From positions 80,329-144,328 of the forward strand of contig JALHQN010000014.1 of the NCBI GenBank assembly GCA_022841915.1: DNA of 64,000 nucleotides. The letters are read 5' to 3'. The position numbers and the translations under genes are program-made. Below the pieces are notes generated by a model. It worked only from the letters and a program-made list of their open reading frames with translations. It ran no database searches and was not told where the DNA came from. This document shows positions 2,800 through 30,213 of this stretch, piece by piece. Numbering within the stretch: the first letter of the stretch is position 1; every line of letters begins with the position of its first letter. This DNA is from Burkholderiales bacterium (lineage in GTDB: Bacteria; Pseudomonadota; Gammaproteobacteria; Burkholderiales; WYBJ01).

Positions 2800-2997
2800 A
2801 TGACCCAGACCAAAACCACCTTCCACCGCGACGGCAGCGGCAAACTCACCCGCGTCACCAACGAACGCTACCAGGACGGAAGCAGCAAGACCACCGTCTC
2901 CCGAGGCTCCACGGGGCTCTTCGGCTCCTTCGCCGGCAAGATCACATCCCAGACCCGTACCGACAAGTCCGGCAACTCCTGGACCAAGAAGCGATAG
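2800..2997 (+). CDS. Conserved 65-residue basic protein, copy A
   Basis: ATG at 2800 is preceded by AGGAG at 7-base spacing. The 65-residue product starts MTQTKTTFHRDGSGK and ends DKSGNSWTKKR; it is rich in Thr, Ser, Lys and Arg, has no signal peptide, membrane segment or cysteine, and its alternating polar pattern suggests beta strands. Two nearly identical copies are at 14930 and 20819. Differences are confined to a few positions near residues 13, 19, 38-39, 43, 45 and 47. The gene is always divergent from a STAND-WD40 gene, which suggests a partner, activator, antitoxin-like regulator or sensed decoy, but no function can be assigned. I do not recognise the family. Confidence 0.85.
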   Translation: MTQTKTTFHRDGSGKLTRVTNERYQDGSSKTTVSRGSTGLFGSFAGKITSQTRTDKSGNSWTKKR

Positions 2998-3000
2998 CCA

Positions 3001-3218
3001 CCCCGCTCAAAATCCTGCACCCGTCCGCGTTGAGTAGGCATGCGGAGATCGTCGAGCCACAGGTTTCCTCCTCCCTGCCTCGTGGCGCACCTCTGGCGAT
3101 CTCCGCACTTTTTCAAAGAAAAGAAGCTCAGATGCGAGCCTAGACCACGTCGACCGACTAATCCCGAGATTCTTCCATCAATCCCAAGGGCCTGGCCCTC
3201 CCGATACCCCAACGGGCC
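3001..3218 (+). other. Conserved 3' element with terminator-like hairpin, copy A
   Basis: Directly follows the small gene. It holds an 11-bp stem (3041-3051 with 3097-3107) followed by CTTTTT, with a nested inner stem (3056-3060 with 3082-3086). Further right are a ribosome-binding-like AAAGAA, a three-codon ATG-CGA-GCC-TAG reading frame, and a near-palindrome GGGCCTGGCCC. The whole block recurs after the small gene in copies B and C. Transcription termination is the simplest role; conservation beyond the T-run suggests more. Confidence 0.65.
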
Positions 3219-3249: not shown

Positions 3250-3798
3250 GTGATCCCATCCACGACATACCAGGCCAGTCCGCACGTCTGCCGCAGTCCT
3301 CGCGTTCAGCGTCTCCTCGGCGCAGCACTTCTCAGTGCGTCACTACTCAGCGTTAGCCCACCGATCGAAGCAGGCTCCCTGGCCGGGTCGGTCGCCAAGG
3401 CAGCGGCGAAGCGCTCAGCCGCCACCCTGGGCGGCCACTCTGCGGCGCGCGCCGGAAAGCCGGCCGACGTCATCATTCATCGCAGCAAGCATCCGCAAAC
3501 CGCGCAGCACATCGAAGAAGCCCAGCGACTCGGCCAACCGAGCGTGCTCACTATTGATCGAAGTGGCGCAGCAGCTCGACGGCGCGATGCCATGGCTCAC
3601 GTCGATCGGCCCAAGGATCATCGCGTCCACGGGCGAGACCGCGATGAATATCCCCCCGCCATGACGCGCGAAGGCGGCGGCAACAGCGACGTTCGCTACG
3701 TCGGCGCCTCCGACAATCGCGGCGCGGGCAAAGCCTTCGGGCATCAGACGCGGCACCTACCCGATGGGAGCCGCGTCAGCGTGCATGTCACGGACTGA
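3250..3798 (+). CDS. Secreted NucA/NucB-type deoxyribonuclease domain protein
   Basis: 182 residues. A hydrophobic segment at about 21-40 ending IEA-GS looks like a signal peptide. The C-terminal ~90 residues match the NucA/NucB nuclease pattern as found in secreted and polymorphic-toxin nucleases: LTIDRSGAAARRRDA at 100-114, RDEYPPA at 131-137, EGG at 141-143, ASDNRGAG at 153-160 and a terminal PDGSRV strand. Members are metal-dependent, non-specific DNases. ATG at 3250 follows a weak ribosome-binding site; a GAAAGG lies further upstream. The gene lies immediately after the 3' element of module A. No recognisable inhibitor gene follows. It could be an exported nutrient or biofilm nuclease, or an antibacterial effector; the sequence does not decide. 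Confidence 0.75.
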   Translation: MIPSTTYQASPHVCRSPRVQRLLGAALLSASLLSVSPPIEAGSLAGSVAKAAAKRSAATLGGHSAARAGKPADVIIHRSKHPQTAQHIEEAQRLGQPSVLTIDRSGAAARRRDAMAHVDRPKDHRVHGRDRDEYPPAMTREGGGNSDVRYVGASDNRGAGKAFGHQTRHLPDGSRVSVHVTD

Positions 3799-3842: not shown

Positions 3843-4073
3843 GTGCGCCCTCGCTTCCTATCTCGCAGGACGCATGTCCACTATTCCTGGCTTGTCGGAA
3901 CAGAGTTCGCCCCGATTGAAGCGAGTTCTGCCGGCCGCACAGCGGAAATTCTGAGAGAAGGCATGACCCAGGGCATCGCCGACATTTGCCTTGACCACGA
4001 TCTCGAAAAGCAACCCGTCACGCAAAGTGATCTCGGCCTATCAGGTGCCACTTGCGATAACGCCCTAGCCTAA
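3843..4073 (+). CDS. Uncertain small ORF
   Basis: A 76-codon frame between the nuclease and the convergent RAMP gene, overlapping the end of the latter by 9 bases. It has no recognisable domain or good ribosome-binding site. If the nuclease needs an inhibitor, this is the only downstream candidate, but nothing in its sequence supports that. It may be spurious. Confidence 0.2.
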   Translation: MRPRFLSRRTHVHYSWLVGTEFAPIEASSAGRTAEILREGMTQGIADICLDHDLEKQPVTQSDLGLSGATCDNALA

Positions 4074-4964
4074 CGGACGAAAGCCGAGACGCCAAAATGC
4101 TCGCCCGTACCCCGCCGCCGCCCTGCCCCCGATGTGTAGGTACCGCTCGACCGGAAGTTTACTCAGCGGATCGATGCTCAAACCAACGAGAGTGTCCAAT
4201 CGAGATCGATCGACTGCGACGATTCCCCAGAGCAGGGAATCTGCCGGAAAAATCTCCTCGTACCGGAGCATCCCCTCCTGGAGGCAGCGCCCATCAGGAC
4301 GCACGCCGATGCGGGCGTGCCGCTTCGTCACAGACCCTACAAGAACATGGAGCAGTTTGTCAGGCAGCACCGTGAAGCGTGTCTTGAAGCGTCCGCCCAA
4401 GTGCGATGCCGTCGGAAACACTCGATCCGCAATCCATTCAGCCCAGACGCTCGCCTGCGACTGCAGTTTGGCGTCGGGCTCGGCGATAACTTCCAGATCC
4501 TCCAGGCATGCGACCGTGCCCTGTGCCAGACTGCTGTTACGCGGAAACACTGCGGAATTGTCGCTGGGCACGGGTACGCAGAGGGGGATGCCCAATCCAT
4601 CCGGGCTTACTTCCTGCCAATCGCTTCTGTAGCGATTCATGATCGTCGGGCAAGATGCCCACACGATACCTCCACATGAGGTCCGGACCGGAATACAAAG
4701 AAGGTTCGCATCCCCGACCGCGATTGCACCTGTACACGAGGTTTTCGAAGAACTGGAACCGAACATGGACAACCAGTCCTCGTCATCGGCCTCCAATTCA
4801 TGACGTAGGTCCCTACGCAGCGCCCCCTTTACAGCGCTACCCTTAACAATCGGCCACCTCTGCGTCCCCTCGCATGCCGTTGACAAACCCAGGTCTCCCG
4901 CACGGAATCCCACTTCAACGTCCATCGCCGATAGGAGATGGAGGTGGTAGATTTGACTTTCCAC
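4065..4964 (-). CDS. Orphan Cmr4-like (Cas7-type) RAMP superfamily protein
   Basis: About 299 residues from the GTG at 4964, chosen because GAGG sits 6 bases upstream; the frame also opens at a TTG at 5054, adding 30 unmatched residues. The layout is that of type III-B Cmr4: an N-terminal LHLLSAMDVEVGF strand-loop, PIVKGSAVKGALR at 38-50 (the G-S-x-x-K-G RAMP motif), TGAIAVGDANLLCIPVR then WASCP (78-105), FTVLPDKLLHVLV and RYEEIFPADSLLWG at 197-247, and the glycine-rich loop LHIGGRAAAGYGR at 276-288. Cmr4 forms the RNA-binding, target-cleaving backbone of Cmr complexes; Asp24 lies in the loop where Cmr4 has its catalytic aspartate, but this is tentative. No other cmr, cas or CRISPR sequence is in the window. 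It follows the DUF1615 gene on the same strand with a 90-base gap. Confidence 0.78.
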   Translation of the reverse strand: MESQIYHLHLLSAMDVEVGFRAGDLGLSTACEGTQRWPIVKGSAVKGALRRDLRHELEADDEDWLSMFGSSSSKTSCTGAIAVGDANLLCIPVRTSCGGIVWASCPTIMNRYRSDWQEVSPDGLGIPLCVPVPSDNSAVFPRNSSLAQGTVACLEDLEVIAEPDAKLQSQASVWAEWIADRVFPTASHLGGRFKTRFTVLPDKLLHVLVGSVTKRHARIGVRPDGRCLQEGMLRYEEIFPADSLLWGIVAVDRSRLDTLVGLSIDPLSKLPVERYLHIGGRAAAGYGRAFWRLGFRPLG

Positions 4965-5054
4965 TCGCTCCCTCTTGATTTCCGTGGATGTCTTCGTGCC
5001 AGGAGGACAAAGATGCACATTCCCTCGCATTCTAGGTCCTATCGCTTCAATCAA

Positions 5055-6713
5055 TCACCACCCCGCCATCAGCGCGTTATCCGCATTCTTCCGGGCTTGA
5101 ATCGACTGGGCCTCTGCTCGAGCTAGACAGGCGCGATAGCGCGAATCGACTCTCTCTGCGAACCATTTGGTAGTCAGGTTCCTACGGTGTATTTTGGGAC
5201 CACTGAGTTTGACCTGCGGGATTAGCGCACGGGGCACGGACCGGCCGGCGCGCTGATCCGCCTGCTCGAACACGCGAATGTACAGTGCCGTGCGCCCCAG
5301 GTCCGCTGTTCCGCTCAGTTGCAGATCCCGCAGCATCTGCGCTTGATCCAGTTTCAGTTGCGGTCCCAACGAGAGCGCGGCACGGATGGTCTCGCTGCTG
5401 GGCGTGCCCGAGGCGTCGCGCGGCACCACGATGCCATCGAGTACGAGGGGGATACCGGAAAGTCGGGCAATCGCATTCTGGAGAGCCGCGTTTCGGCTGG
5501 CATATCGTCCAGCGTTGTAGTCGGCGAAGCGGTAGATCGGCGCATCGTACGGCGCGGCGTACGCGAACAGATGGGCCGCCCCAAAGTAAATGCCGCCTCG
5601 ACGGGAGAAACCGATAGCGCGCAAGTTACTATCAGACGGCATGCGCTCAGGATGCTCCTTCGCAAAATTGTCGATGAAATCGACGCTGACTTGCATGGGA
5701 CCCAGCGTGCGCACGGGATTCAAATGCCCGAAGAGGCGTCCGCCCAGCGGAACCTTCTGGATGAAGTCTTCGAAGATGGCGCTGAGCTCACGTTCTGTGC
5801 GTACCGCGTCGATCCGCACCTTGTACGTACGCCCATCAGGGGAGCGCATCGACACGGCAGTCTCGAGAAGAACCGTCGGAACACCATACCGGTCCCGCCG
5901 CCTTTCGATCTCGTCCCAAACGATGCCCGGCAATCCAGGCACGACAGGATCGACCTGAAATCCGGATTCTTGCGCGATCACAGCCATGGTCGCGCAAATG
6001 TATTGCGTCGACGATGGAACTTTCAATGCGTCGAGAACGGAGACGATGTCTGCCGCCCATGCGGCCCGATTTTTCACCCGCTCGGGGAGCAGTCGCTCCG
6101 CAAGCGCACGTGGATCCCTTGCAGGGCCCTCGGGCACGAAGCCTTGGATCGGCGCAGTCGACCGCTGTTCTAATGCCGATGGGGCTTTGGATAAACGCGG
6201 CGAAGGGAGCGCCAGTGGTTCGTCGCTCGGCGCTGCTGACAACGGGTTTTGCCGTGCTGCCCGCTCCGGCACTGGAGGATTCACTCGCGACGCGTCATTC
6301 GTTGCCGGAACGTGCAACTCAGGCCTCGGCGCCTGGGGCGCTGGATATGCCCTCGGCGCCGCACCGACCGGATCAGGTTCCCCCCGCGGTACCGAATCGG
6401 ATGGCATTTGGACTGACGCTACGACTGGCGATCGTGTCCGTGCGCAGCGCCATGTGGTGCGGCCATTCTCCCCCTTGACCGGAACGTAACCTGCGCGAAT
6501 CAGTAGATCGGAGACCTTCGCTGTCTCCGGCCTCGGACCCGGCGGCACCAGACTCTCGAAGGGCGGACAGCCGCCACGCGATGGGAATGGCCGTGGCGAG
6601 TTGGCAGGCACTTCGGTAGTTGGCATCGGTGCCATCACCACGGGGACCGATGTACATCCACCGATCACTTTCGCTAGAGCAACTACCACAACCGAGGATC
6701 GCAACGCCGACAT
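5055..6713 (-). CDS. DUF1615 family lipoprotein
   Basis: 552 residues. The N-terminus has a hydrophobic stretch and a lipobox-like IGGC near residue 20, then a long Pro/Ala-rich low-complexity spacer (about 30-200), then the conserved DUF1615 domain: ICATMAVIAQESGFQ, VDPVVPGLP, MRSPDGRTYKVRIDAVRTE, LFGHLNPVRTLGPMQVS, FSRRGGIYFGAAHL, FADYNAGRYASRNAA and a terminal LTTKWFAERVDSRYRACL. The E-S plus G-P-M-Q-V-S pattern resembles lysozyme-like transglycosylases, but the family has no assigned function. The ATG at 6713 has GGGAG 8 bases upstream. The long spacer is unusual compared with the short N-termini I know for the family. Confidence 0.8.
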   Translation of the reverse strand: MSALRSSVVVVALAKVIGGCTSVPVVMAPMPTTEVPANSPRPFPSRGGCPPFESLVPPGPRPETAKVSDLLIRAGYVPVKGENGRTTWRCARTRSPVVASVQMPSDSVPRGEPDPVGAAPRAYPAPQAPRPELHVPATNDASRVNPPVPERAARQNPLSAAPSDEPLALPSPRLSKAPSALEQRSTAPIQGFVPEGPARDPRALAERLLPERVKNRAAWAADIVSVLDALKVPSSTQYICATMAVIAQESGFQVDPVVPGLPGIVWDEIERRRDRYGVPTVLLETAVSMRSPDGRTYKVRIDAVRTERELSAIFEDFIQKVPLGGRLFGHLNPVRTLGPMQVSVDFIDNFAKEHPERMPSDSNLRAIGFSRRGGIYFGAAHLFAYAAPYDAPIYRFADYNAGRYASRNAALQNAIARLSGIPLVLDGIVVPRDASGTPSSETIRAALSLGPQLKLDQAQMLRDLQLSGTADLGRTALYIRVFEQADQRAGRSVPRALIPQVKLSGPKIHRRNLTTKWFAERVDSRYRACLARAEAQSIQARKNADNALMAGW

Positions 6714-7254
6714 CGTATCGTCTCCCTATCACAATCGATTACTCGAATCCCTTCGGGGGTACAGGATCCGCGCCATGACTTCGCGACGCTCGCCGCATTC
6801 GACGGTGGATAGCTCGCCGTTTGGGTCGCTGGCGGAACGCGCTGGGACCGGGTCGCGCATGGGTTAGTCGACAGCAACGTGGGTATCCCGCCTGGATTGC
6901 GGCAGACTCGATCCCGGCTGTCAGATCGCACTGCATCTCTCCAACAGTGCGCGATGGTGATCCAAGCACGCCCCGATACAGGATCAACGCCGAGTACGTA
7001 GGAATTTTGAGAGGGACGGAACAACCCTTCGCATCAAGTCGAAGGTGTCCGGAGAAGTTCGGTGCGGGTTGACGACGAGATCAAAGGCCCGCGCACTCTG
7101 CATCGAAACCTCAAGGCGGCCCAGGGGGTAGAAGCATGCAGCTCGCTGGACGCAACATCCACACCTGACAGAGCAGCACACCCCTTGGGCGTGAATCCAC
7201 GTGAAGCACGTGACGACGACTCGACGTATTACGAGGAACAATACTGCGTAGAGC
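6714..7254. other. 541-base region without a recognised gene
   Basis: Upstream of the DUF1615 gene. Short frames exist but none has a plausible product. It contains one copy of a roughly 60-base repeated element (6971-7033, listed separately), so it probably carries the promoter for the DUF1615-RAMP pair. Confidence 0.5.
6971..7033. repeat. Intergenic element, copy 1 of 2
   Basis: Begins CCCCGATACAGGA and contains GGAATTTTGAGA exactly 30 bases after the start, then ACGGA and CTTCGC. A second copy with the same 30-base spacing is at 10198-10266. Both lie upstream of minus-strand genes, so a shared promoter or operator is likely. Confidence 0.6.
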
Positions 7255-9951: not shown

Positions 9952-10161
9952 CTACTTCAATGCGGCGGGTTCGCGGATTTTGAGGACCTCGGCCGCGGGG
10001 TGTTCCTCGGGGACCGAGGCGCCTGCGCCGGAGTAAAGCGTGGCTTGGATGAAGTTCTCTTCGCCGGGGTAGTTCTGCGCCCCGTCGATCCAGCCCACGG
10101 TGCCCGCGTAGCGGGCGTAGCGCCGGACAAGGAAGCCATTCCAGGCGTCGCGGAGTTTCAT
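9952..10161 (-). CDS. Hypothetical 69-residue protein
   Basis: ATG at 10161 preceded by AGGGAGG at 8 bases, a strong ribosome-binding site. The product begins MKLRDAWNGFLVRRYARY and has no signal peptide. Copy 2 of the repeated intergenic element lies 37 bases upstream, so it probably drives this gene. Function unknown. Confidence 0.55.
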   Translation of the reverse strand: MKLRDAWNGFLVRRYARYAGTVGWIDGAQNYPGEENFIQATLYSGAGASVPEEHPAAEVLKIREPAALK

Positions 10162-10197: not shown

Positions 10198-10266
10198 CCC
10201 CGATACAGGAGCAACGTGGATCGCGACGGAATTTTGAGAATAAACGGAGGAACGCGCGTTCGCACC
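10198..10266. repeat. Intergenic element, copy 2 of 2
   Basis: Shares CCCCGATACAGGA, CAACG, GGAATTTTGAGA at 30-base spacing, ACGGA and TTCGC with the copy at 6971. Located directly upstream of the 69-residue-protein gene (minus strand). Confidence 0.6.
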
Positions 10267-10406: not shown

Positions 10407-13400
10407 TTAGTTAGCGAGCCTAAGAAAGTGCACCCGACCAGCCTCGTCGCCCGCAATGATTGTCGCGCGATCTGGCGCGAATTCGCAGACGTACACTGTC
10501 GCGTCCGTCGAGAACACATGCGTCGTCGTTCCAGTATCCAGGTCCCACACGCGCAGCGTCTTGTCCAATGACGCCGACACCACCCGCCGGCCATCCGCGT
10601 GCAGGGCCACGTGAAAGACCCCATCGGTATGCCCCTCGAGCGTCGCTAGGCACGTCCCGCGCTCCAGGTCCCACACGCGCAGCGTCTTGTCATGAGACGC
10701 CGACACCGCCCGCCGGCCATCGGGGTGCAGCGCCACGTTCCGGACGCTGTCGGTATGCCCGTCCAGCGCCGCCACGCACGCCCCGCGCTCCAGATCCCAC
10801 ACGCGCAGCGTATCGTCCCTCGACGCCGACACCGCCCGCCGGCCATCGGCGTGCAGGGCCACGTGCCGGACGCTGTCGGTATGCCCTTCCAGCGCCGCCA
10901 CGCACATCCCGCGCTCCAGGTCCCACACGCGCAGCGTCTTATCCAATGACGCCGACACCGCCCGCCGACCATCGGCGTGCAGGGCCACGTGAGTGACCGC
11001 GCGGGTATGCCCTTCCAGCGCCGCCACGCACATCCCGCGCTCCAGGTCCCACACGCGCAGCGTTCTATCCCGTGACGCCGACACCGCCCGCCGGCCATCG
11101 GCGTGCAGGGCCACATGAAGGACGCTGTTGGCATGCCCTTCCAGGACCGCCAAACACGTCCCGCGCTCCAGGTCCCACACGCGCAGCGTATCGTCCACTG
11201 ACGCCGACACCGCCCGACGGCCATCGGCGTGCAGGGTGACGTGAAGGACGCTGTTGGTATGCCCTTCCAGGACCGCCAAACACGTCCCGCGCTCCAGGTC
11301 CCACACGCGCAGCGTTCTATCCCGTGACGCCGACACCGCCCGCCGGCCATCGGCGTGCAGGGCCATGTGCAAGACCCATTGGGTATGCTCTTCCGGCGCT
11401 GCCACGCACGTCCCGCGCTCCAGGTTCCAAACGCGCAGCGTCCCGTCCTCAGAGGGCGATACCGCCCGCAGTCCGTCAGCGTGCAGGGCCACGTGGCAGC
11501 TCCTGCCGCGGGTATGCCCTACCAGTACTGCCAGACAAGTCCCGCCGTCCAGGTCCCACACGCGCAGCGCCTTGTCCAATGACGCCGACACCGCCCGCTT
11601 GCCATCGGCGTGCAGGGCCACGTGATTGACCCAGTCGGTATGGCCTTCTAGCTTCGCAACGCAGGTCCCGCGCTCCAGGTCCCACACGCGCAGCGTCTTG
11701 TCCAATGACGCCGACACCGCCCGACGGCCATCCGCGTGCAGGGCCACGTGATTGACACCTTTGGTATGCCCCTTCAGCGTCGCTAAACACGTCCCGCGCT
11801 CCAGTTCCCACACGCGCAGCGTCTTGTCCACTGACGCCGACACCGCCCGCCGGCCATCGGCGTGCAGGGCCACGTGAGTGACCCAGTCGGTATGCCCTTC
11901 CAGCGCCGCCACGCACATCCCGCGCTCCAGGTCCCACACGCGCAGCGTGTTGTCCTCAGAAGACGACACCGCCCGCCGTCCATCGGCGTGCAGGGCCACG
12001 TGATTGACCCCGTTGGTATGCCCCTTCAGCGTCGCTAAACACGTCCCGCGCTCCAGGTCCCACACCCTCAGCGTCTTGTCCCAGGACGCCGACACCGCCC
12101 GCCGGCCATCCGCGTGCAGGGCCACGTGATTGACACCTTTGGTATGCCCCTTCAGCGTCGCTAAACACGTCCCGCGCTCCAGGTCCCACACCCTCAGCGT
12201 CTTGTCCCAGGACGCCGACACCGCCCGCCGGCCATCCGCGTGCAGGGCCACGTGAATGACCGCGGCGGTATGGCCTTCCAGTACCGTCACGCACGTCCCG
12301 CGCTCCAGGTCCCACACGCGCAGCGTCTTGTCCCAGGACGCCGACACCGCCCGCTGGCCATCGGCGTGCAGGGCCACGTGATAGACCCAGTCGGTATGGC
12401 CCTCCATTCGACGCACCTCTGCTCCCCCAACAGAGGTCAAGCTCGCCCGCACCGGCCGAAGCCATGCCCAGTGCGTCCCATCGTCTACCTGCTGGGTCAG
12501 CGCTGCCAACCGCTCGTTGTTCAGCTCGCCCAGCCTGCCCCGAAGCTGGGAAGGCAATGCCGTTGGATCCCTAGACAGGGCGGGAATCGATAGCGTCAGC
12601 GCGTCGGCAAGGAGCGTAATTGCTTCTGCTGTCGACGGATCCGCTTGGGATGTCAGGGGATCGGCCTGTCTCGCGTGCTCCGCCAAGTTGGTGATCAGCA
12701 GCGGTCGTGATCGACTTTTCGGATCGGCCCCCAACGCTGCCACGAGGTACTTGTAGTCAAGCAATGTGTCCGCGAGCTGCTTTGCCACCTCCCGCGCGTC
12801 CTTCGCCGTCTCAATCAGGTGTGGCAACAGATTCCTCAACGCCACCGTCCGGCTATCCCCCTGTAGCCGCCCCCATATTGCCGCACTCCAGGCCAACAGC
12901 GCGTGGACCTGCCTCACCAGCCGCGGCCCACCATCCGACGTCACCAGCGTCTCGAGAATCAGCTCGGGGATCCGACTGTGGCGGAACACGTAGGTCGGCT
13001 CCGGGCCACCGTGCACTTCGCACCAGTCGGCCAATTGGCCCAGCACAGCCTCTACGCACTCCGGCGTGATGGCTGAGGTGAGCAGCTTCCCCTCCCGCCG
13101 AGGCACGGTGGGTTCGTGCCGACTCGCCGCGTCCGCCGCGCCATGGATCATGTCCTCGATCAGCGCATCCGTGGGCTTCGTCCCCAGGTCATGCCACAGC
13201 GCCAACACCGTCGCGATCACTGGCAAGTGCGCCTCGTACGCCGCGTGCGCCTCGCGACCCGCCTGTTCCAACCGCCGACGCTTGTACCGCCAGTCCTCGC
13301 CGAGCATCTCGTCAATCCCGCTCGGCAGCTTCGCGCCCGGCTCGCACCAGCGCTCGAAGTTCGTCGGCCCGTTCGAAGGATCCCGTCTGTCGAGCGTCTC

Positions 13401-14573
13401 CTTGCGCCCGAACCACTCCGCCACGAAGAACGCCCCTTCGCACCCCGCCATCATCCGTTCGACGACGGACTGAATCTCCGCCTCGAACGCGGTGTGCGCC
13501 TCCCCGTACTCGGTGATCCGTGTCGTGAGGTACTCGCGTAGATCTTGGCGGTTCGCGTCTCCTAGATCCGTCCGGGCCAAGTTCTCCGGATCGATGATGA
13601 CGAGGTCGGATCGATGCCCGAACTGTTCCAGGTGATCCCCAGGTCGTGAGGTCAGCAGGATGAACACCCCGTCGGGCAGCGGATTCGGAAACAGATCCTG
13701 CAGCATCCAGCGCTGATCGCGATCGTGTACGACCGGCGTGTTACTCCCGAACGCTTCGTCCAAGCCGTCGATCACGACCAGGAGCTTCTGATCCGCCGTC
13801 TTCAGCTTCTCTTTGGCCTCCTCGAGCACCTGACGCAACACGGCCGGGGCGGTCTGCGACGTCACCGCCTTCGACTCACCCGCGGGCAGGGGCATCAAGA
13901 GCCGATCCCGCAGCTGCCACTCAAGCTGGCTCGCGATCGTCGCCGTCGGCAGCCAGTCTCGGTGATCCCGTCTGAGGATGTGCCAGCCCAGCACCCAGGC
14001 CGGGCCGAGTTGGCGCCCCCCGTACTGCCGGATCAATTCGAGCAGGAACGCCGTCTTGCCGAATCCCGGGCCTGCCTCCAGTACGACAAGGCCATTCTTG
14101 CGCGCCTCCAGGATCTCTTGGATATGCTCGAAGAGCCACCGCCGACCTTTGAATCCGTCGGACTTGTACTGGTGCTGCAGTGCCTCGACGAAGCGCTTCG
14201 GGACGAAGCCTTCGCGCTGGCTCTGCTGCACACGCAGATCGGCCACCAGGCCAGCGAACGTCTCCTGGAAGCATAACCGCGGCAAGGACGTCGGCTGACG
14301 GTACGCCTGAATACCGTCGTGGCCGAGCAGATCGGCCTGGTTGTGCGCGATCCCCACCACTCTGGGTGGGAAGTGCCCGGTGCTCGCGAGCACAGCAAAG
14401 GGCGACTCGCCGAACAATGCAGCGAGCTTGGCCTTGATGCCGCCGACTTCACTGAGCCTGCCGTCCGCGTCGATCTGCGCACTGACCACCACCCGCGAGA
14501 GCACATCTCCATCGGCTAACTCCGCCAGGTGCTCGATCACCTGCTCCGCGCTCTGATCACCAAGCATCGTCAT
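10407..14573 (-). CDS. STAND/NACHT-type NTPase with WD40 repeats, copy B
   Basis: 1388 residues. Order: N-terminal domain (1-120) containing IDADGRLSEVGGIKAKL, which resembles the second half of a Lon-type domain; P-loop GPGFGKT at 168-174; Walker B LLVVIDGLDEA at 264-274; LLTSRPG at 306-312; a helical/winged-helix-like middle with YVFRHSRIPELILE; then from about residue 724, 15 complete 42-residue WD40 blades and a degenerate sixteenth (VYVCEFAPDRATIIAG). Architecture is that of a STAND sensor ATPase: propeller binds a ligand, NTPase oligomerises, N-terminal domain signals or executes. An in-frame TAG lies 8 codons upstream, so no larger N-terminal domain is missing. It is divergent from the 65-residue-protein gene. 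Role in defence or self-recognition is inference. Confidence 0.9.
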   Translation of the reverse strand: MTMLGDQSAEQVIEHLAELADGDVLSRVVVSAQIDADGRLSEVGGIKAKLAALFGESPFAVLASTGHFPPRVVGIAHNQADLLGHDGIQAYRQPTSLPRLCFQETFAGLVADLRVQQSQREGFVPKRFVEALQHQYKSDGFKGRRWLFEHIQEILEARKNGLVVLEAGPGFGKTAFLLELIRQYGGRQLGPAWVLGWHILRRDHRDWLPTATIASQLEWQLRDRLLMPLPAGESKAVTSQTAPAVLRQVLEEAKEKLKTADQKLLVVIDGLDEAFGSNTPVVHDRDQRWMLQDLFPNPLPDGVFILLTSRPGDHLEQFGHRSDLVIIDPENLARTDLGDANRQDLREYLTTRITEYGEAHTAFEAEIQSVVERMMAGCEGAFFVAEWFGRKETLDRRDPSNGPTNFERWCEPGAKLPSGIDEMLGEDWRYKRRRLEQAGREAHAAYEAHLPVIATVLALWHDLGTKPTDALIEDMIHGAADAASRHEPTVPRREGKLLTSAITPECVEAVLGQLADWCEVHGGPEPTYVFRHSRIPELILETLVTSDGGPRLVRQVHALLAWSAAIWGRLQGDSRTVALRNLLPHLIETAKDAREVAKQLADTLLDYKYLVAALGADPKSRSRPLLITNLAEHARQADPLTSQADPSTAEAITLLADALTLSIPALSRDPTALPSQLRGRLGELNNERLAALTQQVDDGTHWAWLRPVRASLTSVGGAEVRRMEGHTDWVYHVALHADGQRAVSASWDKTLRVWDLERGTCVTVLEGHTAAVIHVALHADGRRAVSASWDKTLRVWDLERGTCLATLKGHTKGVNHVALHADGRRAVSASWDKTLRVWDLERGTCLATLKGHTNGVNHVALHADGRRAVSSSEDNTLRVWDLERGMCVAALEGHTDWVTHVALHADGRRAVSASVDKTLRVWELERGTCLATLKGHTKGVNHVALHADGRRAVSASLDKTLRVWDLERGTCVAKLEGHTDWVNHVALHADGKRAVSASLDKALRVWDLDGGTCLAVLVGHTRGRSCHVALHADGLRAVSPSEDGTLRVWNLERGTCVAAPEEHTQWVLHMALHADGRRAVSASRDRTLRVWDLERGTCLAVLEGHTNSVLHVTLHADGRRAVSASVDDTLRVWDLERGTCLAVLEGHANSVLHVALHADGRRAVSASRDRTLRVWDLERGMCVAALEGHTRAVTHVALHADGRRAVSASLDKTLRVWDLERGMCVAALEGHTDSVRHVALHADGRRAVSASRDDTLRVWDLERGACVAALDGHTDSVRNVALHPDGRRAVSASHDKTLRVWDLERGTCLATLEGHTDGVFHVALHADGRRVVSASLDKTLRVWDLDTGTTTHVFSTDATVYVCEFAPDRATIIAGDEAGRVHFLRLAN
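10511..12404 (-). repeat. 15-unit, 126-bp WD40-encoding tandem array, copy B
   Basis: Fifteen near-identical units (one two codons longer). Consensus features per unit: HVALHADGRRAVSAS, TLRVWDLERG, LEGHT. Variation is concentrated before the HVALHADG strand, at the two residues around Asp in SASxDx, and just before LEGHT. Confidence 0.92.
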
Positions 14574-14929
14574 CGATTCCGTCGTCCGTATTGACTATCG
14601 CAAGTCTCTATCACCACATGCCTACGACATCGATGGCGCGCGCAGGCGGTGGCGTCAATCTGTTCTGTCCAGCACGCCACTCAGCTGCGGCGCACGGGCT
14701 CGCACCCCGTCAACGCGCGCCCAGCCCCGATTTTTATCCCCCCACCCCTCAAAAACCCCTCCCTCCCCGCGTTGAGCCCTCAGAGGGGAAGGAATCACGC
14801 AGCACGCAGCACCCCTCGGCGAAGCACCCGGGTCGGGACAGCGCTGCACGCTTCACTGGCCCGACCCGCGGGGCAACGCCACGACAGACCGACCCTACGA
14901 CAACAGCCACCTCATCCAGGAGATCCACC
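14574..14929. promoter_or_regulatory. Conserved divergent intergenic region, copy B
   Basis: Equivalent to 2442-2799 and 20470-20818. Contains the C-rich block, the CCCTCAGAGGG palindrome and the bulged hairpin (arms 14825-14837 and 14860-14873). Here the stem gains one more inner G-C pair compared with copies A and C. It should contain promoters for both flanking genes. Confidence 0.6.
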
Positions 14930-15127
14930 ATGACCCAGACCAAAACCACCTTCCACCGCGACGGCACCGGCAAGCTCACCCGCGTCACCAACGAACGCTA
15001 CCAGGACGGCAGCAGCAAGACCACCGTCTCCCGAGGCTCCAAGGATCTGTTCGGCATCTTCTCCGGCAGGATCACCTCCCAGACCCGCACGGACAAGTCC
15101 GGCAACTCCTGGACCAAGAAGCGATAA
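14930..15127 (+). CDS. Conserved 65-residue basic protein, copy B
   Basis: ATG at 14930 with AGGAG 7 bases upstream, identical in context to copies A and C. The product differs from copy C at only three positions (Thr13 for Ser, Val19 for Ile, Arg47 for Lys). Thr/Ser/Lys-rich, soluble, no known domain. Divergent from STAND copy B. Confidence 0.85.
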   Translation: MTQTKTTFHRDGTGKLTRVTNERYQDGSSKTTVSRGSKDLFGIFSGRITSQTRTDKSGNSWTKKR

Positions 15128-15129
15128 CC

Positions 15130-15344
15130 ACCTCACTCAAAATCCTCCACCCGTCCGCGTTGAGTAGGTGTGCGGAGATCGTCGGACCACGGGGTTCCTC
15201 CTCCTGCCTCGTGGCCCACCTCTGGCGATCTCCGCACTTTTTACGAAAGGAAACTCCGATGCAAGCCTAGCACTCGTCGACCGACCCATCCCGAGATTCT
15301 TCCGTCAACACCACGGGCCTGGCCCTCCTGAGAGCAAAACGGGC
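15130..15344 (+). other. Conserved 3' element with terminator-like hairpin, copy B
   Basis: Outer stem 15171-15181 with 15226-15236 (11 bp) followed by a T-run; inner stem 15187-15194 with 15207-15214 (8 bp including one G-T). After it come AAAGGAA, then ATG-CAA-GCC-TAG, and GGGCCTGGCCC. Sequence shared with 3001-3218 and 21019-21240. Confidence 0.65.
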
Positions 15345-15569
15345 TAATCCCTCAACTCTCTCGAACCGCCTTCGGAACGACAAAGCGCATCATCCAACGC
15401 AAGATTCGGTTGTTGCTCTGATGCAGCAAGAAAAATCAACGCTTCATCCATGCAACGCTTCAATGTATGCTGAAACCATACGATTGCAATCGTTTAGACT
15501 GACCAATAGACCGATCGCGATCACTCGGAGCATTCGGGACCCCGACCCCATTGATCACAGGAGCTCGCC
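15345..15569 (+). promoter_or_regulatory. AT-richer leader region of the orphan WD40 gene
   Basis: Not shared with the other modules. It contains a direct repeat CAACGCTTCA at 15437-15446 and 15453-15462 (16-base period) and a perfect 14-base palindrome ACGATTGCAATCGT at 15480-15493. These could be operator sites for the gene starting at 15570. Confidence 0.4.
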
Positions 15570-16097
15570 GTGTTGAATGTCACACCAACAAAAAGCAATA
15601 AAGTCGTAGTGCACGTTTCAGATGACCACTCGATTCGAGTGCTCGACCTAACCGACGGGACGGTGATTTTCGTTCTGTCGGGTCATTTGGGAAATGTACT
15701 GAGCGTTAGCCTGACCCCGGACGAAACAAAGGTGTTATCAGCATCAAGCGACAAGACCCTGCGCGTCTGGGATCTTGATCATGGTCGTTGCCTCGCCGCC
15801 CTCACGGGACATACTGCCGCCGTGAATTGCGTTACAGTACATGCCGATGGGCGCCGCGCGATTTCGGGATCAGATGATCACACGCTACGCGTCTGGGATC
15901 TGGCGCGCGGGACCTGCGTGGCGGTATTGGAAGGGCATACCCACGAGGTCACGCATGTGGCGCTGCACGCCGATGGCCGCCGCATCATCTCGGCTTCGCG
16001 TGATAACGTTCTACGGGCTTGGGATGTCGATAGGGGCCAGTGCTTGCGCGCCTGGGATCTTGCTCCGACGAGCACCTCACAGAATCGTCCGCTTTAG
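15570..16097 (+). CDS. Free-standing four-blade WD40 repeat protein
   Basis: 175 residues from the GTG at 15570, with AGGAG 7 bases upstream. It is essentially only WD40 sequence: a divergent first blade (VVVHVSDDHSIRVLDL) and three blades with the island consensus (TLRVWDLARG, VLEGHTHE, HVALHADGRR). There is no NTPase or effector domain. Four blades cannot close a normal seven-blade propeller, so it must oligomerise, pair with a STAND protein or be a remnant. It lies between module B and the 3' end of STAND copy C and is transcribed convergently with C. It could also act as a recombination donor of blade sequence. Confidence 0.7.
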   Translation: MLNVTPTKSNKVVVHVSDDHSIRVLDLTDGTVIFVLSGHLGNVLSVSLTPDETKVLSASSDKTLRVWDLDHGRCLAALTGHTAAVNCVTVHADGRRAISGSDDHTLRVWDLARGTCVAVLEGHTHEVTHVALHADGRRIISASRDNVLRAWDVDRGQCLRAWDLAPTSTSQNRPL

Positions 16098-16326: not shown

Positions 16327-19300
16327 TCATGTACCGATCGTATTGAGAAAGTGCACCCGACCAGCCTCGTCGCCCGCAATGATTGTCCCGCGATCTGGCG
16401 CGAATTCGCAGACGCACACGGTCGCGTCCGTCGAGAACACATGCGTCGTCGTTCCAGTATCCAGGTTCCACACACGCAGCGTGTGGTCCTCAGACGCCGA
16501 CACCGCCCGACGTCCATCGGCGTGCAGGGCCACGTAAAGGACGCTGTGGGTATGCCCTTCCAGGACCGCCACACACCTCCCGCGCGCCAGGTCCCATACG
16601 CGCAGCGTCTTGTCCGATGACGCCGACACCGCCCGCCGTCCGTCCGGGTGCAGGACCACGTGATAGACCGAGCCGGTATGCCCCGCCAGCGTCGCCACAA
16701 ACCTCCCGCGCTCCAGGTCCCACACGCGCAGCCTCGAGTCCGATGACGACGAGACCGCCCGCCGTCCATCCGCGTGCAGGGCCACGTGAGTGACCCTGTC
16801 GGAGTACCCCCCCAGCCTCTCCACCCACGTCCCGCGCTCCAGGTCCCACACGCGCAGCGTCGAGTCCACGGACGCCGACACCGCCCGCCGTCCATCGGCG
16901 TGCAGGGCCACTTGGGTAACCGCGTTGATGTGCCCCGCCAGCCGCGCCAGACACGTCCCGCGCGCCAGGTCCCACACGCGCAGCGTCCTGTCCCTGGACG
17001 CCGACACCACCCGCCGTCCATCGGCGTGCAGGGCCACGTGAAGGACCGCGTCGGTGTGCCCTTCCAGCGTCGCCAGACATGTCCCGCGCGCCAGGTCCCA
17101 CACGCGCAGCGTCTTGTCCCATGATGCCGACACCGCCCGCCGTCCATCGGCGTGCACGGCCATGTGAGTGACCTCGCGGGTATGCCCTTCCAGTACCGCC
17201 AAGCACGTTCCGCGCTCCAGGTCCCACACCCGCAGCGTGTTGTCCCGGGACGCCGACACCGCCCGCCGACCATCGGCGTACAAGGCCACGTGAAGGACCC
17301 CGCGGGTATGCCGTTCCGGTGCTGCTAGGCACGTTCCGCGCTCCAGGTCCCACACGCGCAGCGTCCTGTCCATAGACGCTGACACCACCCGCCGTCCATC
17401 GGCGTGCAAGGCCACGTGAGTGACATCTGCGGTATGCCCTTCCAGCGTCGCCAGACATGTCCCGCGCTCCAGGTCCCACACCCGCAGCGTCTTGTCCAAT
17501 GACGCCGACACCACCCGCCGACCATCGGCGTGCAGGGCCACGTGAAGGACCCCGCGGGTATGCCCTTCCAGTACCGTCAGACACGTTCCGCGCTCCAGGT
17601 CCCACACGCGCAGCGTATAGTCCCGTGACGCCGACACCGCCCGCCGTCCATCCGCGTGCAGGGCGACGTGAGTGACCTCGTCGGTATGCCCTTCTAGCGT
17701 CGCAACGCAGGTCCCGCGCTCCAGGTCCCACACGCGCAGCGTCTTGTCCCGTGATGCCGACACCGCCCGCCGTCCGTCCGCGCGCAGGACCACGTGAGTG
17801 ACCGTGTCGAGGTGCCCCGCCAGCCGCGCCACGCACGTCCTTCGCTCCAGGTCCCAGACCCGCAGCGTCTTGTCCCTTGACGCTGACACCACCCGCCGTC
17901 CATCGGCGTGCAGGGCCACGTGAGTGACCTTGTCGGTATGCCCTTCCGCCCTCGCCACACACGTCCTGCGCTCCAGGTCCCAGACCCGCAGCGTCTTGTC
18001 CCTTGAAGCTGACACCACCCGCCGTCCATCGGCGTGCAGGGCCACGTGAGTGACCTCGTCGGTATGCCCTTCCAGGACCGCCAGACACGTCCCGCGCTCC
18101 AGGTCCCATACGCGCAGCGTGTCATATTCTGCATACACCACCCGCCGTCCATCGGCGTGCAGGGCCACGTGAGGGACCCCGAAAGTACGCCCTTTTAGCG
18201 TCGCAACGCAGGTCCCGCGCTCCAAGTCCCACACGCACAGCGTGCCGTCCTTTGACGCCGACACCGCCCGCCGTCCATCCGCGTGTAGGGCCACGTGACA
18301 GACGGAGTTGGTATGGCCCTCCATTCGACGCACCTCTGCCCCCCCAGGAGAGGTCAAGCTCGCCCGCACCGGCCGTAACCATTCCCAGTGTGTCCCGTCG
18401 TCCACCTGCTGGGTCAGCGCTGCAAACCGCTCGTTGCTCAGCTCGCCCAGCCTGCCCCGAAGCTGCGAGGGCAACAACGATGGGTTCGTTGACAGAGCGG
18501 AAATCGATAGCGTCAGCACATCGGCAAGGAGCGTGATTGCTTCTGCTGTCGACGGATCCGCTTGGGATGTCAGGGGGACGGCCTGCCTCGCGTACTCCGC
18601 CAAGTCGGTGATCCGCAGCAGTCGTACGGGATCCTTCGGATCCGCCCCCAACGCTGCCACGAGATACTCGTAATCGAGCAGCGTATCGGCAAGCTTCTTT
18701 GCCGCTTCGCTGTCTACCGCCGCGAGTGCGAGCAGGTGCTGCGGCAAGCCCCTCAACGCCGCCGTGCGGCTGTCTCCTTGGAGCTGTCGCCACCGCCCGC
18801 TGCTCCAGGCCAGCAGCGCACGCACCTCCTGTTGGATGGCCTCGTCACGTCCGCTCTTGGCCAGCACCTCCAGGATCAACTCCGGGATCCGGCTATGCCG
18901 AAATACAAAGCGCCGATCCTTGCTCCCCGATTCGACGCACCAGTCCCGCAGCTGCTCCAGGCACGCTTCGATCCCCGCCCGCTTGATCTCTTCCGTGTCC
19001 AGCTTCCCGACACACGCTGGCACTGTCGGATCCCGTTGCCTTGCCGCGTCGCGTGTCGTCTCAATCAAATCGGTGATGATGACCCGTGTGGGCTGCGTCC
19101 CCTGCTGATGCCACAGCGCCAGTGCTGTCGCGATCACCGGCAGGTGGTTACCGTACTTCTCGGACTGAAGTATGTTGTACTTGTGGTACCAGTCGTTCTT
19201 CAACATCTCGTCGATACCACGGGGCAGCTTCGCATCCGGTTCGCGCCAGCGCTCGAAGTTCGTCGGCCCGTCTTCGGATTCTCGCCGGTCGAGCGTCTTC

Positions 19301-20469
19301 TTGCGCGCAAACCACTCCGCCACGAAGAACGCCCCCTCGCACGCCTCCACCATGCGTTCGACCAGCGAATGGATCTCGCTCTCGTAGGCGGTGTGTGCTT
19401 CTCCGTAGTCGGTGATTCGACGCGTCAGGTACTCGCGTAGATCCTGGCGGTTCGCTTGGTCAATTGCTGCATTAGCCCCGGAATCGAGCACAAGCAGGTC
19501 ATCCGGATCCCCCAGCGCCTGCAGATGATCCCCGGGCCGTGAGGTCAGCAGGATGAATACGCCCGCCGGGAGCTTCGGCGGAAACAGTCCTTGCAGGTAC
19601 GCCAGCTGCCCCCGCTGCTCGACTGGAGTATTTGCTCCGAACGCCTCATCCAATCCGTCCACCACGATCAGCAGCTTGCGATCCGGCGCCGCTTCGAGCT
19701 TCTTTGCCGCCGCTTCGAGCACCTGCTTGAGAACGGCCGGTGCGTTCTGTGGGGTGATCCTCTCAGATCGCCCCTCCGACAGCGGCATCAGCAGTCGATC
19801 CCGCAACTGGTACTCGATCTGGCCTGCCAGGGCCGGTGTCGGCAACCAATTCGATTGATTGCGCCGGAACACGTGCCAGGCCAGCACCCAGGCCCCGCCC
19901 AGCAACTGGCCACCGTAGGTTTCGATCAGCTTGAGAACGAACGCCGTCTTCCCGAACCCCGCACCGGCCTTCAGCACGATCAGCCCCTGATCATGGGAAG
20001 CAACGAGCTCTTCGATCCGCTCGAACAGCCACTCGCGCCCTTCGAACAGGGCAACGTCGTAATTCTCCTGACTGAGCTCCTCGGCGAAGCGAAACGGAGC
20101 CACTCCGGGGCGCGTGCTCTGCTGCACACGCAGATCAGCCACCAAGCCAGCGAACGTCTCCTGGAAGCACAACCGTGGTAGCGCGTGAGCCTTGCGGTGC
20201 GCTTCGATGTCCGCGTCCGCCAGCAGTTCCGCCTGATCCTGGGCGATGCCCACCGCGCGGGGCGGAAACTGCCCTGTGCGGGCACGCACCGCGAACGGGG
20301 ATTCCCCGAACAGGGCGGCCAGCTTCGCGTCGATGCCGCCGACCTTGCTCAGCCTGCCATCCGCGTCGATCTGCGCACTGACCACCACCCGCGACAGCGC
20401 ATCACCGTCTGCTAATTCCGCCAGATGATTGATCACCTGCTCCGCGCTCTGTGCTCCAAGCATCGTCAT
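16327..20469 (-). CDS. STAND/NACHT-type NTPase with WD40 repeats, copy C
   Basis: 1380 residues with the same order as copy B: N-terminal domain with IDADGRLSKVGGIDAKL (1-120), P-loop GAGFGKT at 169-175, Walker B LLIVVDGLDEA, LLTSRPG, a helical middle with FVFRHSRIPELILE, then 15 WD40 blades and a degenerate sixteenth. Blade 2 is one residue short (VVYAEYDTLRVW). The last coding residues differ from copy B (FLNTIGT against FLRLAN), and homology between the two copies starts just inside the stop codon. The N-terminal half resembles copy A more than B. Sensor role of the propeller is known for the class; the ligand and output are unknown. Confidence 0.9.
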   Translation of the reverse strand: MTMLGAQSAEQVINHLAELADGDALSRVVVSAQIDADGRLSKVGGIDAKLAALFGESPFAVRARTGQFPPRAVGIAQDQAELLADADIEAHRKAHALPRLCFQETFAGLVADLRVQQSTRPGVAPFRFAEELSQENYDVALFEGREWLFERIEELVASHDQGLIVLKAGAGFGKTAFVLKLIETYGGQLLGGAWVLAWHVFRRNQSNWLPTPALAGQIEYQLRDRLLMPLSEGRSERITPQNAPAVLKQVLEAAAKKLEAAPDRKLLIVVDGLDEAFGANTPVEQRGQLAYLQGLFPPKLPAGVFILLTSRPGDHLQALGDPDDLLVLDSGANAAIDQANRQDLREYLTRRITDYGEAHTAYESEIHSLVERMVEACEGAFFVAEWFARKKTLDRRESEDGPTNFERWREPDAKLPRGIDEMLKNDWYHKYNILQSEKYGNHLPVIATALALWHQQGTQPTRVIITDLIETTRDAARQRDPTVPACVGKLDTEEIKRAGIEACLEQLRDWCVESGSKDRRFVFRHSRIPELILEVLAKSGRDEAIQQEVRALLAWSSGRWRQLQGDSRTAALRGLPQHLLALAAVDSEAAKKLADTLLDYEYLVAALGADPKDPVRLLRITDLAEYARQAVPLTSQADPSTAEAITLLADVLTLSISALSTNPSLLPSQLRGRLGELSNERFAALTQQVDDGTHWEWLRPVRASLTSPGGAEVRRMEGHTNSVCHVALHADGRRAVSASKDGTLCVWDLERGTCVATLKGRTFGVPHVALHADGRRVVYAEYDTLRVWDLERGTCLAVLEGHTDEVTHVALHADGRRVVSASRDKTLRVWDLERRTCVARAEGHTDKVTHVALHADGRRVVSASRDKTLRVWDLERRTCVARLAGHLDTVTHVVLRADGRRAVSASRDKTLRVWDLERGTCVATLEGHTDEVTHVALHADGRRAVSASRDYTLRVWDLERGTCLTVLEGHTRGVLHVALHADGRRVVSASLDKTLRVWDLERGTCLATLEGHTADVTHVALHADGRRVVSASMDRTLRVWDLERGTCLAAPERHTRGVLHVALYADGRRAVSASRDNTLRVWDLERGTCLAVLEGHTREVTHMAVHADGRRAVSASWDKTLRVWDLARGTCLATLEGHTDAVLHVALHADGRRVVSASRDRTLRVWDLARGTCLARLAGHINAVTQVALHADGRRAVSASVDSTLRVWDLERGTWVERLGGYSDRVTHVALHADGRRAVSSSSDSRLRVWDLERGRFVATLAGHTGSVYHVVLHPDGRRAVSASSDKTLRVWDLARGRCVAVLEGHTHSVLYVALHADGRRAVSASEDHTLRVWNLDTGTTTHVFSTDATVCVCEFAPDRGTIIAGDEAGRVHFLNTIGT
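16435..18327 (-). repeat. 15-unit, 126-bp WD40-encoding tandem array, copy C
   Basis: Fifteen near-identical 126-bp units, one a codon shorter. The same variable positions as in copy B. No spacers and full protein coding, so not a CRISPR array. Confidence 0.92.
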
Positions 20470-20818
20470 CGATTCCGTCTTCCGTATTGACTATCGCAAG
20501 TCTCTATCACCACATGCCTACGACATCGATGGCGCGAGCAGGCGGTGGCGTCTCTCTGTTCTATCCAGCACGCCACTCAGCTGCGGCGCACGGGCTCTCA
20601 CCCCGTCAACGCGCGGCCAGCCCCGATTTTTATCCCCGCACCCCTCAAAAACCCCCTCACCCCCGCGTTGAGCCCTCAGAGGGGAAGGAATCACGTAGCA
20701 CCCCTCGGCGAAGCACCCGGGTCGGCACAGCGCAGCACTCTTCACTGGACCGACCCGCGGTGCAACGCCACGACAGACCAACCCTACGACCAGCGCCACC
20801 TCATCCAGGAGATCCACC
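20470..20818. promoter_or_regulatory. Conserved divergent intergenic region, copy C
   Basis: Equivalent to the regions in copies A and B, with the C-rich block, the CCCTCAGAGGG palindrome and the bulged hairpin (arms 20714-20725 and 20750-20762). A stretch of about 9 bases present in the other copies before the hairpin is missing here. Confidence 0.6.
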
Positions 20819-21016
20819 ATGACTCAGACCAAAACCACCTTCCACCGCGACGGCAGCGGCAAACTCACCCGCATCACCAACGAACGCTACCAGGACGGCA
20901 GCAGCAAGACCACCGTCTCCCGTGGCTCCAAGGATCTGTTCGGCATCTTCTCCGGCAAGATCACCTCCCAGACCCGCACAGACAAGTCCGGCAACTCCTG
21001 GACCAAGAAGCGATAG
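20819..21016 (+). CDS. Conserved 65-residue basic protein, copy C
   Basis: ATG at 20819, AGGAG at 7-base spacing. Same length and near-identical sequence to copies A and B; Ile replaces Val at residue 19. Soluble, basic, no known domain. Divergent from STAND copy C and followed by the 3' element. Confidence 0.85.
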   Translation: MTQTKTTFHRDGSGKLTRITNERYQDGSSKTTVSRGSKDLFGIFSGKITSQTRTDKSGNSWTKKR

Positions 21017-21018
21017 CA

Positions 21019-21240
21019 AACCCAATCAAAATCCTCTCCCCGTCCGCGTTGAGTCGGCATGCGGAGATCGTCGGGCCAGGGGGGATCCTCCCTTTTCATG
21101 GCCGTGATGCAGTACCGGCGATCTCCCCACCTTTTCGAAGAAAGGAAACTCCGATGCAAGCCTAGAACTCGTCGACCGACCCATCCCGAGATTCTTCCAC
21201 CAAACCCAAGGGCCTGGCCCTCCCGATACCCAAACGGGCC
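21019..21240 (+). other. Conserved 3' element with terminator-like hairpin, copy C
   Basis: Outer stem GGAGATCG/CGATCTCC (21063-21070 with 21119-21126), shorter than in A and B because the outermost pairs are lost. The loop sequence is largely different, yet an inner stem is retained (21074-21078 with 21099-21103). Then AAAGGAA, ATG-CAA-GCC-TAG and GGGCCTGGCCC follow as in the other copies. Confidence 0.65.
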
Positions 21241-23738: not shown

Positions 23739-23862
23739 CCGTTAGGCCGAGTTCGGGCATACTCGGACACCGTGTTCGTCCGTTACTGCTCTCGACTTCG
23801 ATCTCGATCACAACGCCGGGGGTGACAAATGAACCTGCGGCGAACCGACTCGGACTTCTTTC

Positions 23863-30196: not shown

Positions 30197-30213
30197 CTAA
30201 CCCCTTGATTCTT

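Follow-up and report, generated by a model that had tools for sequence, protein, structure and literature searches.

The closest known counterparts in architecture of the proteins considered here are the HNWD receptors of Podospora (HET-D, HET-E and HET-R), which carry a HET effector domain and in which a NACHT domain is followed by highly similar 42-residue WD40 repeats with few variable positions; in these fungal receptors repeat positions 10, 11, 12, 14, 30, 32 and 39 are variable (PMC12222747, the introduction of which mentions four). Bacterial NACHT/Avs proteins combine a NACHT P-loop ATPase with C-terminal sensor repeats, and highly repetitive prokaryotic WD40 proteins have recent repeat arrays with a conserved scaffold and variable interaction sites (PMC5587647). 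Here we describe three modules in a 64,000-nucleotide stretch of a Burkholderiales bacterium genome (the window; contig JALHQN010000014.1, whose own coordinates are prefixed C14, window position 30211 being C14:110539), each built around a large gene of the STAND (signal transduction ATPases with numerous domains) class ending in WD40 repeats. The domain order and repeat pattern resemble those of HNWD proteins, but the STAND proteins here are bacterial, are encoded on an integrative element beside a divergent 65-codon gene, and have no HET effector domain recognized by Pfam, although a divergent one is possible. They share the ATPase and the C-terminal repeats with bacterial NACHT/Avs proteins, whereas their N-terminus has no recognized domain and the PADLOC match to Avs1b reaches only 13.3 bits; the sections of PMC5587647 concerned describe neither a divergent small gene nor an element-wide motif, both of which are present here. 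Judged by their domains and by the pattern of change among their repeats, the STAND proteins are most probably sensors of the NOD-like receptor (NLR) type.

Each module consists of a STAND-WD40 gene, a divergent region, a 65-codon gene and a hairpin. As the first-pass annotation of this DNA had proposed, open reading frames (ORFs) and alignments give the same order and orientation of these parts in all three copies, the hairpin being weak in copy 3. Window coordinates are as follows:

1-2441, minus strand (start at 2441, running left past the window to C14:76092): module 1 STAND gene, N-terminal part (ORF).
2800-2997, plus strand: module 1 65-codon gene (ORF).
3041-3107, plus strand: module 1 hairpin (folding).
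3250-3798, plus strand: module 1 cargo, a NucA/NucB-type nuclease (PF14040, 31.8 bits, cut-off 23.8).
10407-14573, minus strand: module 2 STAND gene, 1388 aa, with an orphan N-terminus (about residues 1-118), NACHT (by alignment to copy 3) and 15 WD40 repeats.
14574-14929, no strand assigned: module 2 divergent region, holding a motif copy at 14749-14774 on the plus strand (alignment, motif search).
14930-15127, plus strand: module 2 65-codon gene (ORF), with a predicted five-stranded beta meander modelled on the module 3 copy.
15170-15237, plus strand: module 2 hairpin; a T-run comes next, then a GGAAA stretch and ATG-CAA-GCC-TAG (folding, sequence).
15570-16097, plus strand: module 2 cargo, a short WD40 ORF (ORF, WD40 repeats).
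16327-20469, minus strand: module 3 STAND gene, 1380 aa, with NACHT and 15 WD40 repeats (ORF; NACHT profile scored).
20819-21016, plus strand: module 3 65-codon gene (ORF).
21057-21131, plus strand: module 3 hairpin, weak, with one stem mismatch and approximate ends (folding).
21333-23738, plus strand: module 3 cargo, a TrwB/HerA-like ATPase (profile matches; mad8 match 55 bits).

The divergent start codons of the STAND and 65-codon genes are 349-358 nt apart in the three modules. In the alignment, read by eye, similarity between modules stops about 90 nt past the hairpin, roughly where the module ends had been placed, and is followed by a different cargo in each module (nuclease, short WD40 ORF or TrwB/HerA-like ATPase), again as first described. 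Copy 1 had been taken to begin at base 1 of the window, which is not so, its ORF continuing to the left. The full module 1 ORF encodes 2225 aa with two WD40 arrays and, by eye, a second partial NACHT (L009:5764-12441, minus strand), and a 10-N assembly gap lies within its array directly left of the window. This protein is an in-frame fusion of a whole NACHT-WD40 protein with a second partial NACHT and its own WD40 array, from either unequal recombination or mis-assembly. The short WD40 ORF at 15570-16097 lies on the strand opposite to the STAND genes, and its repeats share only about 64% DNA identity with those of the large genes. A SpoIIE/PP2C-type phosphatase follows the TrwB/HerA-like ATPase (the pair at window 21333-24579, plus strand).

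Of the hallmarks of NLR-like (NACHT-STAND) proteins, a NACHT P-loop ATPase core and a C-terminal repeat sensor are present. In Pfam, STAND copy 3 matches NACHT (PF05729) with 36.8 bits against a cut-off of 26.7 and NPHP3_N with 28.7 bits against 24.8, and copies 1 and 2 align to it at 85% and 67% identity. For the repeats, 56 anchors yielded 54 repeats of 42 residues (two were dropped because of an X or the array end), of which 50 were kept by having at least 26 of the 42 consensus residues. Mean DNA identity inside the four large arrays is 0.78-0.84. At repeat positions 8, 9, 11, 27 and 29 the ratio of the proportions of nonsynonymous (pN) and synonymous (pS) differences is 1.67 (bootstrap 1.29-2.14), compared with 0.36 at the remaining 37; for S1, S2 and S3 separately, the five positions give 1.51, 1.31 and 2.76. 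These five positions were chosen on the very data that they describe, and so the published fungal set of seven was tried as well. Shifted by three residues, they give a pN/pS of 1.88 (bootstrap 1.54-2.44), compared with 0.34 elsewhere, the highest of the eight shifts from 0 to 7 (the others give 0.38-1.24). After this shift five of the seven published positions coincide with variable positions here, the register relative to the fungal repeats being inferred from the conserved V and W. The arrays resemble HNWD arrays, in that alike 42-residue repeats show excess amino-acid change at the published positions, in the register so aligned. Since the repeats are not mutually independent, pN/pS serves here as a guide and not as a formal test. 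Because the variable positions match five of the seven HET-D/E positions, register permitting, the STAND proteins are probably NLR-like recognition sensors.

Several observations count against this reading. Two of the published positions, 7 and 36 in the present numbering, show no variation, whereas variation does occur at 2 and 4, which lie outside the published set. An assembly gap falls within the arrays, and PMC12222747 reports that arrays of this kind failed to be reconstructed from Illumina data. With copy 3 as the query, the STAND N-terminus, a stretch of about 118 residues in these genes, has no Pfam match above cut-off, and hence no recognized effector, and its AlphaFold2 (AF2) model is of low confidence (predicted local distance difference test, pLDDT, 46). 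In PADLOC, copy 2 gives HEAT-ARM_XIII at 121.3 bits, with the best stretch inside the WD40 repeats, Avs1b at 13.3 bits (E 0.0023) and typeIV_DinG at 10.7 bits; outside the WD40 part of this copy no profile of a known Avs or PADLOC system is convincingly matched.

The N-terminus of another STAND member matches DUF3509 in Pfam at E 0.13 only. A stretch resembling the Lon (S16) peptidase was seen by eye at the STAND N-terminus and is not claimed: local hhalign covers 28 columns at a probability of 2.6%, 2 of 200 column shuffles do equally well, Pfam gives no match, and the first half of the domain is absent by eye. Many of the homologue scans in this work relied on short exact peptides or scored few candidates, which means that distant relatives can escape them. 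The N-terminal 713 positions were compared with 300 relatives and with 398 genomes of the phylum (own genome counted), at most 2-3 candidates being scored per genome, and gave no homologue at E 1e-20. The N-terminal 120 residues had no convincing relative in 298 other genomes; six foreign genomes gave one match each (E 9e-4 to 8e-3, 43-93 residues), which we take as chance. No STAND homologue was found in phages, nor in viral contigs for the stretches searched, and plasmids gave one match, at 23% identity in the NACHT part.

The three copies have diverged unevenly. Between copies 2 and 3, pS is 0.54-0.57 over STAND residues 1-600, 0.27 over residues 601-722 and 0.09 in the 65-codon gene; the STAND gene and the 65-codon gene have values of 0.38-0.55 and 0.14 between copies 1 and 2, and 0.22-0.33 and 0.16 between copies 1 and 3. 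The STAND pN/pS ratio is 0.19-0.54. On the STAND side the intergenic parts of copies 2 and 3 agree at 95% identity, whereas copy 1 shares 63-66% with them. Judged from these values, the modules are not recent and are mosaic; the triplication reported earlier is real, with a STAND pS of 0.22-0.57. Because the 65-codon gene is less diverged than the STAND gene, recombination is suggested and the proposal of a single unit is weakened; the two genes have perhaps had separate histories. The well-kept small-gene block can be explained by inter-module recombination or by selection on the block.

Relative to copy 3, the 65-codon gene is 95% identical in copy 2 and 92% in copy 1, and pN is 0.02-0.05 against a pS of 0.09-0.16, on few changes. 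From the three sequences, AF2 predicts a five-stranded antiparallel meander with a pLDDT of 93. Foldseek returned no match to this model at E 0.001 or better; the best VIA Z score, 7.1, to the single-layer sheet of OspA (1.9 Å over 54), falls in the range of common arrangements, and no family is concluded from it. No family scored above cut-off in Pfam, NCBIfam, PADLOC or PHROGs, the only matches being RHS/YD-repeat ones of about 14 bits. Searches of 199 relatives, of 368 further genomes of the class (the two sets may share members) and of phages, plasmids and viral contigs did not recover the protein. Among genome contigs, 12 pattern stretches yielded one confirmed match, which covers 27 residues of a 350-aa ORF and was rejected.

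The first-pass annotation had read the co-conservation of small protein, hairpin and sensor as a sign of one functional unit, and had suggested asking of other genomes whether the small gene always lies divergent from a STAND gene. This interpretation is supported in part. The confident model and the excess of pS over pN, on few changes, speak for the small protein itself, but co-conservation as stated is not supported; the divergent arrangement holds in three of three copies here, and no locus was found elsewhere. Because no outside homologue was found, the statement that the small gene is always beside STAND rests on three paralogues, with no independent co-occurrence, which counts against the proposal. 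A recent private duplication was to have told against a shared function; the duplication is private as far as searched but not recent. On these three paralogues, the 65-residue protein, the hairpin and the sensor possibly form one functional unit, and it is a tentative suggestion that the 65-residue protein acts on the neighbouring STAND protein.

A stem TGCGGAGATCG...CGATCTCCGCA follows each 65-codon gene, with one mismatch in copy 3. Folding z-scores for the hairpin alone are -4.7, -8.1 and -1.45 in copies 1, 2 and 3, the third being weak, and -1.9, -2.4 and +0.3 with flanks (220-232 nt). Rfam gave no match above the gathering score at the hairpins and found only two tRNAs in the window, and a terminator scan of the module 2 hairpin, limited to loops of 3-8, found none. 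The hairpin was considered as a coding tail and rejected: the frame re-opens at ATG-CRA-GCC-TAG in three of three copies, yet the stem frames differ in copies 1 and 2. Because compensating indels (by eye) give the stem different frames in these copies, it is treated as non-coding. Searched against the own genome, hairpin and divergent-region DNA each found the three module copies and short weak matches, one of which is the motif described below, at C14:75208. Module 2 DNA (14560-15344) matched plasmids once, over 40 bp in Novosphingobium (E 5e-3).

Each module also carries two copies of a motif, TCAAAA-N16-GTTG, one of which (in module 1) has a longer spacer. Searched as the 26-bp pattern TCAAAANNC-N12-CRTTG, the motif has 10 matches in the 6.21-Mb genome, all 10 inside a 44-kb element, and none in three congeneric genomes. 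A reversed-pattern control gave one match in the own genome and one in one relative, and Markov-1 simulations of the element gave a mean of 0.005 matches and a maximum of 1 in 200. In viral contigs a stricter pattern found eight stretches with one match each, taken as background. In addition to the module 2 copy listed above, copies in the window, and the second small gene that they bracket, are:

2618-2644, plus strand: motif with a 17-base spacer, upstream of the module 1 65-codon gene; an eleventh copy, missed by the 26-bp pattern.
3007-3032, plus strand: motif upstream of the module 1 hairpin (pattern search).
6985-7010, minus strand: motif 271 nt upstream of a DUF1615 ORF (5055-6713) (pattern search).
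9952-10161, minus strand: second motif-bracketed small gene, 69 aa, MKLRDAW...; the other copy is at C14:74952-75158.
9958-9983, minus strand: motif at the 3' end of the 69-aa gene, ahead of the next ORF (pattern search).
10212-10237, minus strand: motif ahead of the 69-aa gene, then a short inverted repeat (pattern search).
15137-15162, plus strand: motif upstream of the module 2 hairpin (pattern search).
20645-20670, plus strand: motif upstream of the module 3 65-codon gene (pattern search).
21026-21051, plus strand: motif upstream of the module 3 hairpin (pattern search).

Counting duplicates once, the motif occurs in five contexts (before the 65-codon gene, the module hairpin, the 69-aa gene, the ORF after the 69-aa gene and the DUF1615 ORF), so that it is not specific to STAND genes; in all five it points at the following ORF or leader. 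A start codon accompanied by a ribosome-site-like stretch lies at most 160 nt after the motif in four of these contexts, although behind the module hairpin this start opens only ATG-CRA-GCC-TAG; an 82-codon GTG ORF begins 53 nt past the DUF1615-side motif. Inverted repeats begin 8-10 nt past the motif in the modules and before the 69-aa gene. The C. glutamicum SigH promoter has the form GGAAt-N17-19-GTT (PMC10012870), and with SigH-type extracytoplasmic function (ECF) promoters as described there the motif shares two short blocks, a similar spacing (16-17 here) and a second block of the cGTTga type.

On these grounds the motif is somewhat likely to be a promoter, a view held slightly more firmly until the hairpins before the second small gene were found to fold no better than shuffles. 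For the same reason a common leader structure is not established: 45 of 200 and 27 of 200 shuffles fold as well as the inverted repeats of the two 69-aa leaders. A promoter is further called into question by the first block, which is GGAA in ECF promoters and TCAAAA here, so that of an ECF-type -35 GGAA and -10 GTT only the second block fits. A core promoter would be expected nearer than the 148-156 nt to the 65-codon starts and the 271 nt to DUF1615 measured here. Scanning part of the element's ORFs revealed no gene for a sigma factor, and nothing came from a search of window 14500-15600 for sigma-70 promoters. Since the motif was derived from its copies within the element, their number there is a post hoc count. 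The confinement of the motif to the element lets joint regulation be tested directly.

The two copies of the 69-aa gene lie in a 342-bp block of 82% identity that ends a few bases past a shared start codon, after which one copy continues with a 328-codon ORF and the other with a 25-codon ORF and then a lipoprotein-like ORF; the pattern is similar to that of the 65-codon gene, a conserved block followed by differing sequence. No homologue of the 69-residue protein was found in 389 genomes (own counted), plasmids or viral contigs.

An exact 48-bp direct repeat at a tRNA gene, accompanied by two tyrosine recombinases at the tRNA side, places the modules in an integrative element of about 44 kb:

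27571-28791, plus strand: tyrosine recombinase (PF12834, PF12835).
29051-30196, plus strand: tyrosine recombinase adjoining tRNA-Lys (PF00589).
30211-30258, no strand assigned: attR, a 48-bp repeat over the 3' part of tRNA-Lys(TTT), with an exact copy, attL, at C14:66610-66657.

An att direct repeat and an integrase at a tRNA gene are thus both present. The element also encodes reverse transcriptase, HipA-like, Cmr4-like, PP2C-type phosphatase and Schlafen-type proteins. The reverse transcriptase (L033:10079-11602, which is C14:70079-71602, plus strand) is matched in PADLOC by the general RT profile at 146.6 bits and then by UG17 at 110.5, and its ORF start is overlapped by the second copy of a perfect 120-bp direct repeat (C14:69716-69835 and 70050-70169). 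The Cmr4-like RAMP (repeat-associated mysterious protein) family member (window 4065-5054, minus strand) scores 99.8 bits in PADLOC, with no other type III CRISPR genes among the subset of neighbouring proteins scanned. A protein with an OGFr_N domain (PF04664, 78.9 bits, cut-off 22) is encoded at L009:2066-2620 (minus strand).

We interpret the three modules as NLR-like sensor loci on the integrative element; together with the motif, small-protein and leader readings, this account seems to us evenly poised between right and wrong. The WD40 propellers would bind varying ligands through a hypervariable face, ligand binding would open the NACHT ATPase and lead to oligomerization, and the orphan N-terminus would execute or recruit a response, for instance arrested growth or cell death. 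TCAAAA-N16-GTTG would represent a single (ECF-like) promoter class, through which further genes of the element would be switched on along with the 65-codon gene and with the hairpin leader and its cargo. The 65-residue sheet protein would be an accessory or regulator of the sensor, and the hairpin would serve the cargo downstream, as its 5' leader or attenuator, and form no part of the sensor. From the family and the surroundings, a role in defence or element competition appears slightly favoured. In the literature, as far as titles and abstract openings tell, no description of this module was found.

A serious rival, because the motif is element-wide and a second small gene is bracketed by it, holds that the 65-codon gene, motif and hairpin form a recurring front-end block (motif, small gene, motif, leader) whose link to STAND is an accident of duplication. 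The 69-aa gene, likewise motif-bracketed, in two copies and with differing sequence after it, fits this view, as do the lower divergence of the 65-codon gene relative to STAND and the change of cargo after every module. The 65-codon gene is nevertheless divergent from STAND in all three copies, and STAND genes 1 and 2 each have a 69-aa copy on their 3' side, which may mean that both small-gene blocks travel with STAND; we regard an accidental link as rather unlikely. An arrangement like a toxin-antitoxin pair, in which the 65-residue protein keeps a harmful STAND N-terminus off, would account for a small gene divergent beside a large putative effector in three of three copies and for the compact, confidently predicted model of its product. 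It would require a toxic domain at the STAND N-terminus, where none is recognized, and the small protein belongs to no family above cut-off in the four profile collections searched, which makes such a pair improbable.

The motif might also be a site of site-specific recombination for integron-like cassette exchange instead of a promoter, since copies in the same direction bracket small genes, the sequence behind these genes has been swapped, and the element holds two tyrosine recombinases. The integron core site reads GTTRRRY. This core is broken in 4 of the 11 motif copies, the left end of the motif (CTCAA) is better kept than the right, the copies occur in both orientations, and the points where homology breaks are close behind a start codon or some 90 nt beyond the hairpin, not within the motif; cassette exchange is thus no more probable in our view than the toxin-antitoxin arrangement. 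Least probable of all, and very unlikely, is that the modules are ordinary, decaying genomic-island paralogues with no joint function and an incidental 65-codon ORF. The lack of outside homologues found, the in-frame fused second partial STAND in module 1 and the short WD40 ORF in cargo 2 would suit decay, which is contradicted by pN below pS in STAND (0.19-0.54) and, though on few changes, in the 65-codon gene, by the absence of stops in the three copies, and by the pLDDT of 93 for the 65-residue protein together with the WD40 signal.

In its most far-reaching form, which we consider doubtful, the proposal of NLR-like sensor loci would describe a mobile element that brings its own set of NLR receptors with allorecognition-style WD40 variation. 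One promoter class private to the element would control these receptors together with conserved front ends that encode small proteins and accept different cargo. Recognition would then be a portable system under joint control, in which the receptor needs the 65-residue sheet protein as its partner. If the sensor proposal is true, bacteria would use on a mobile element the same trick as fungal incompatibility receptors, namely alike blades with few selected positions, and ligand recognition by a bacterial NLR would be open to study through blade swaps.

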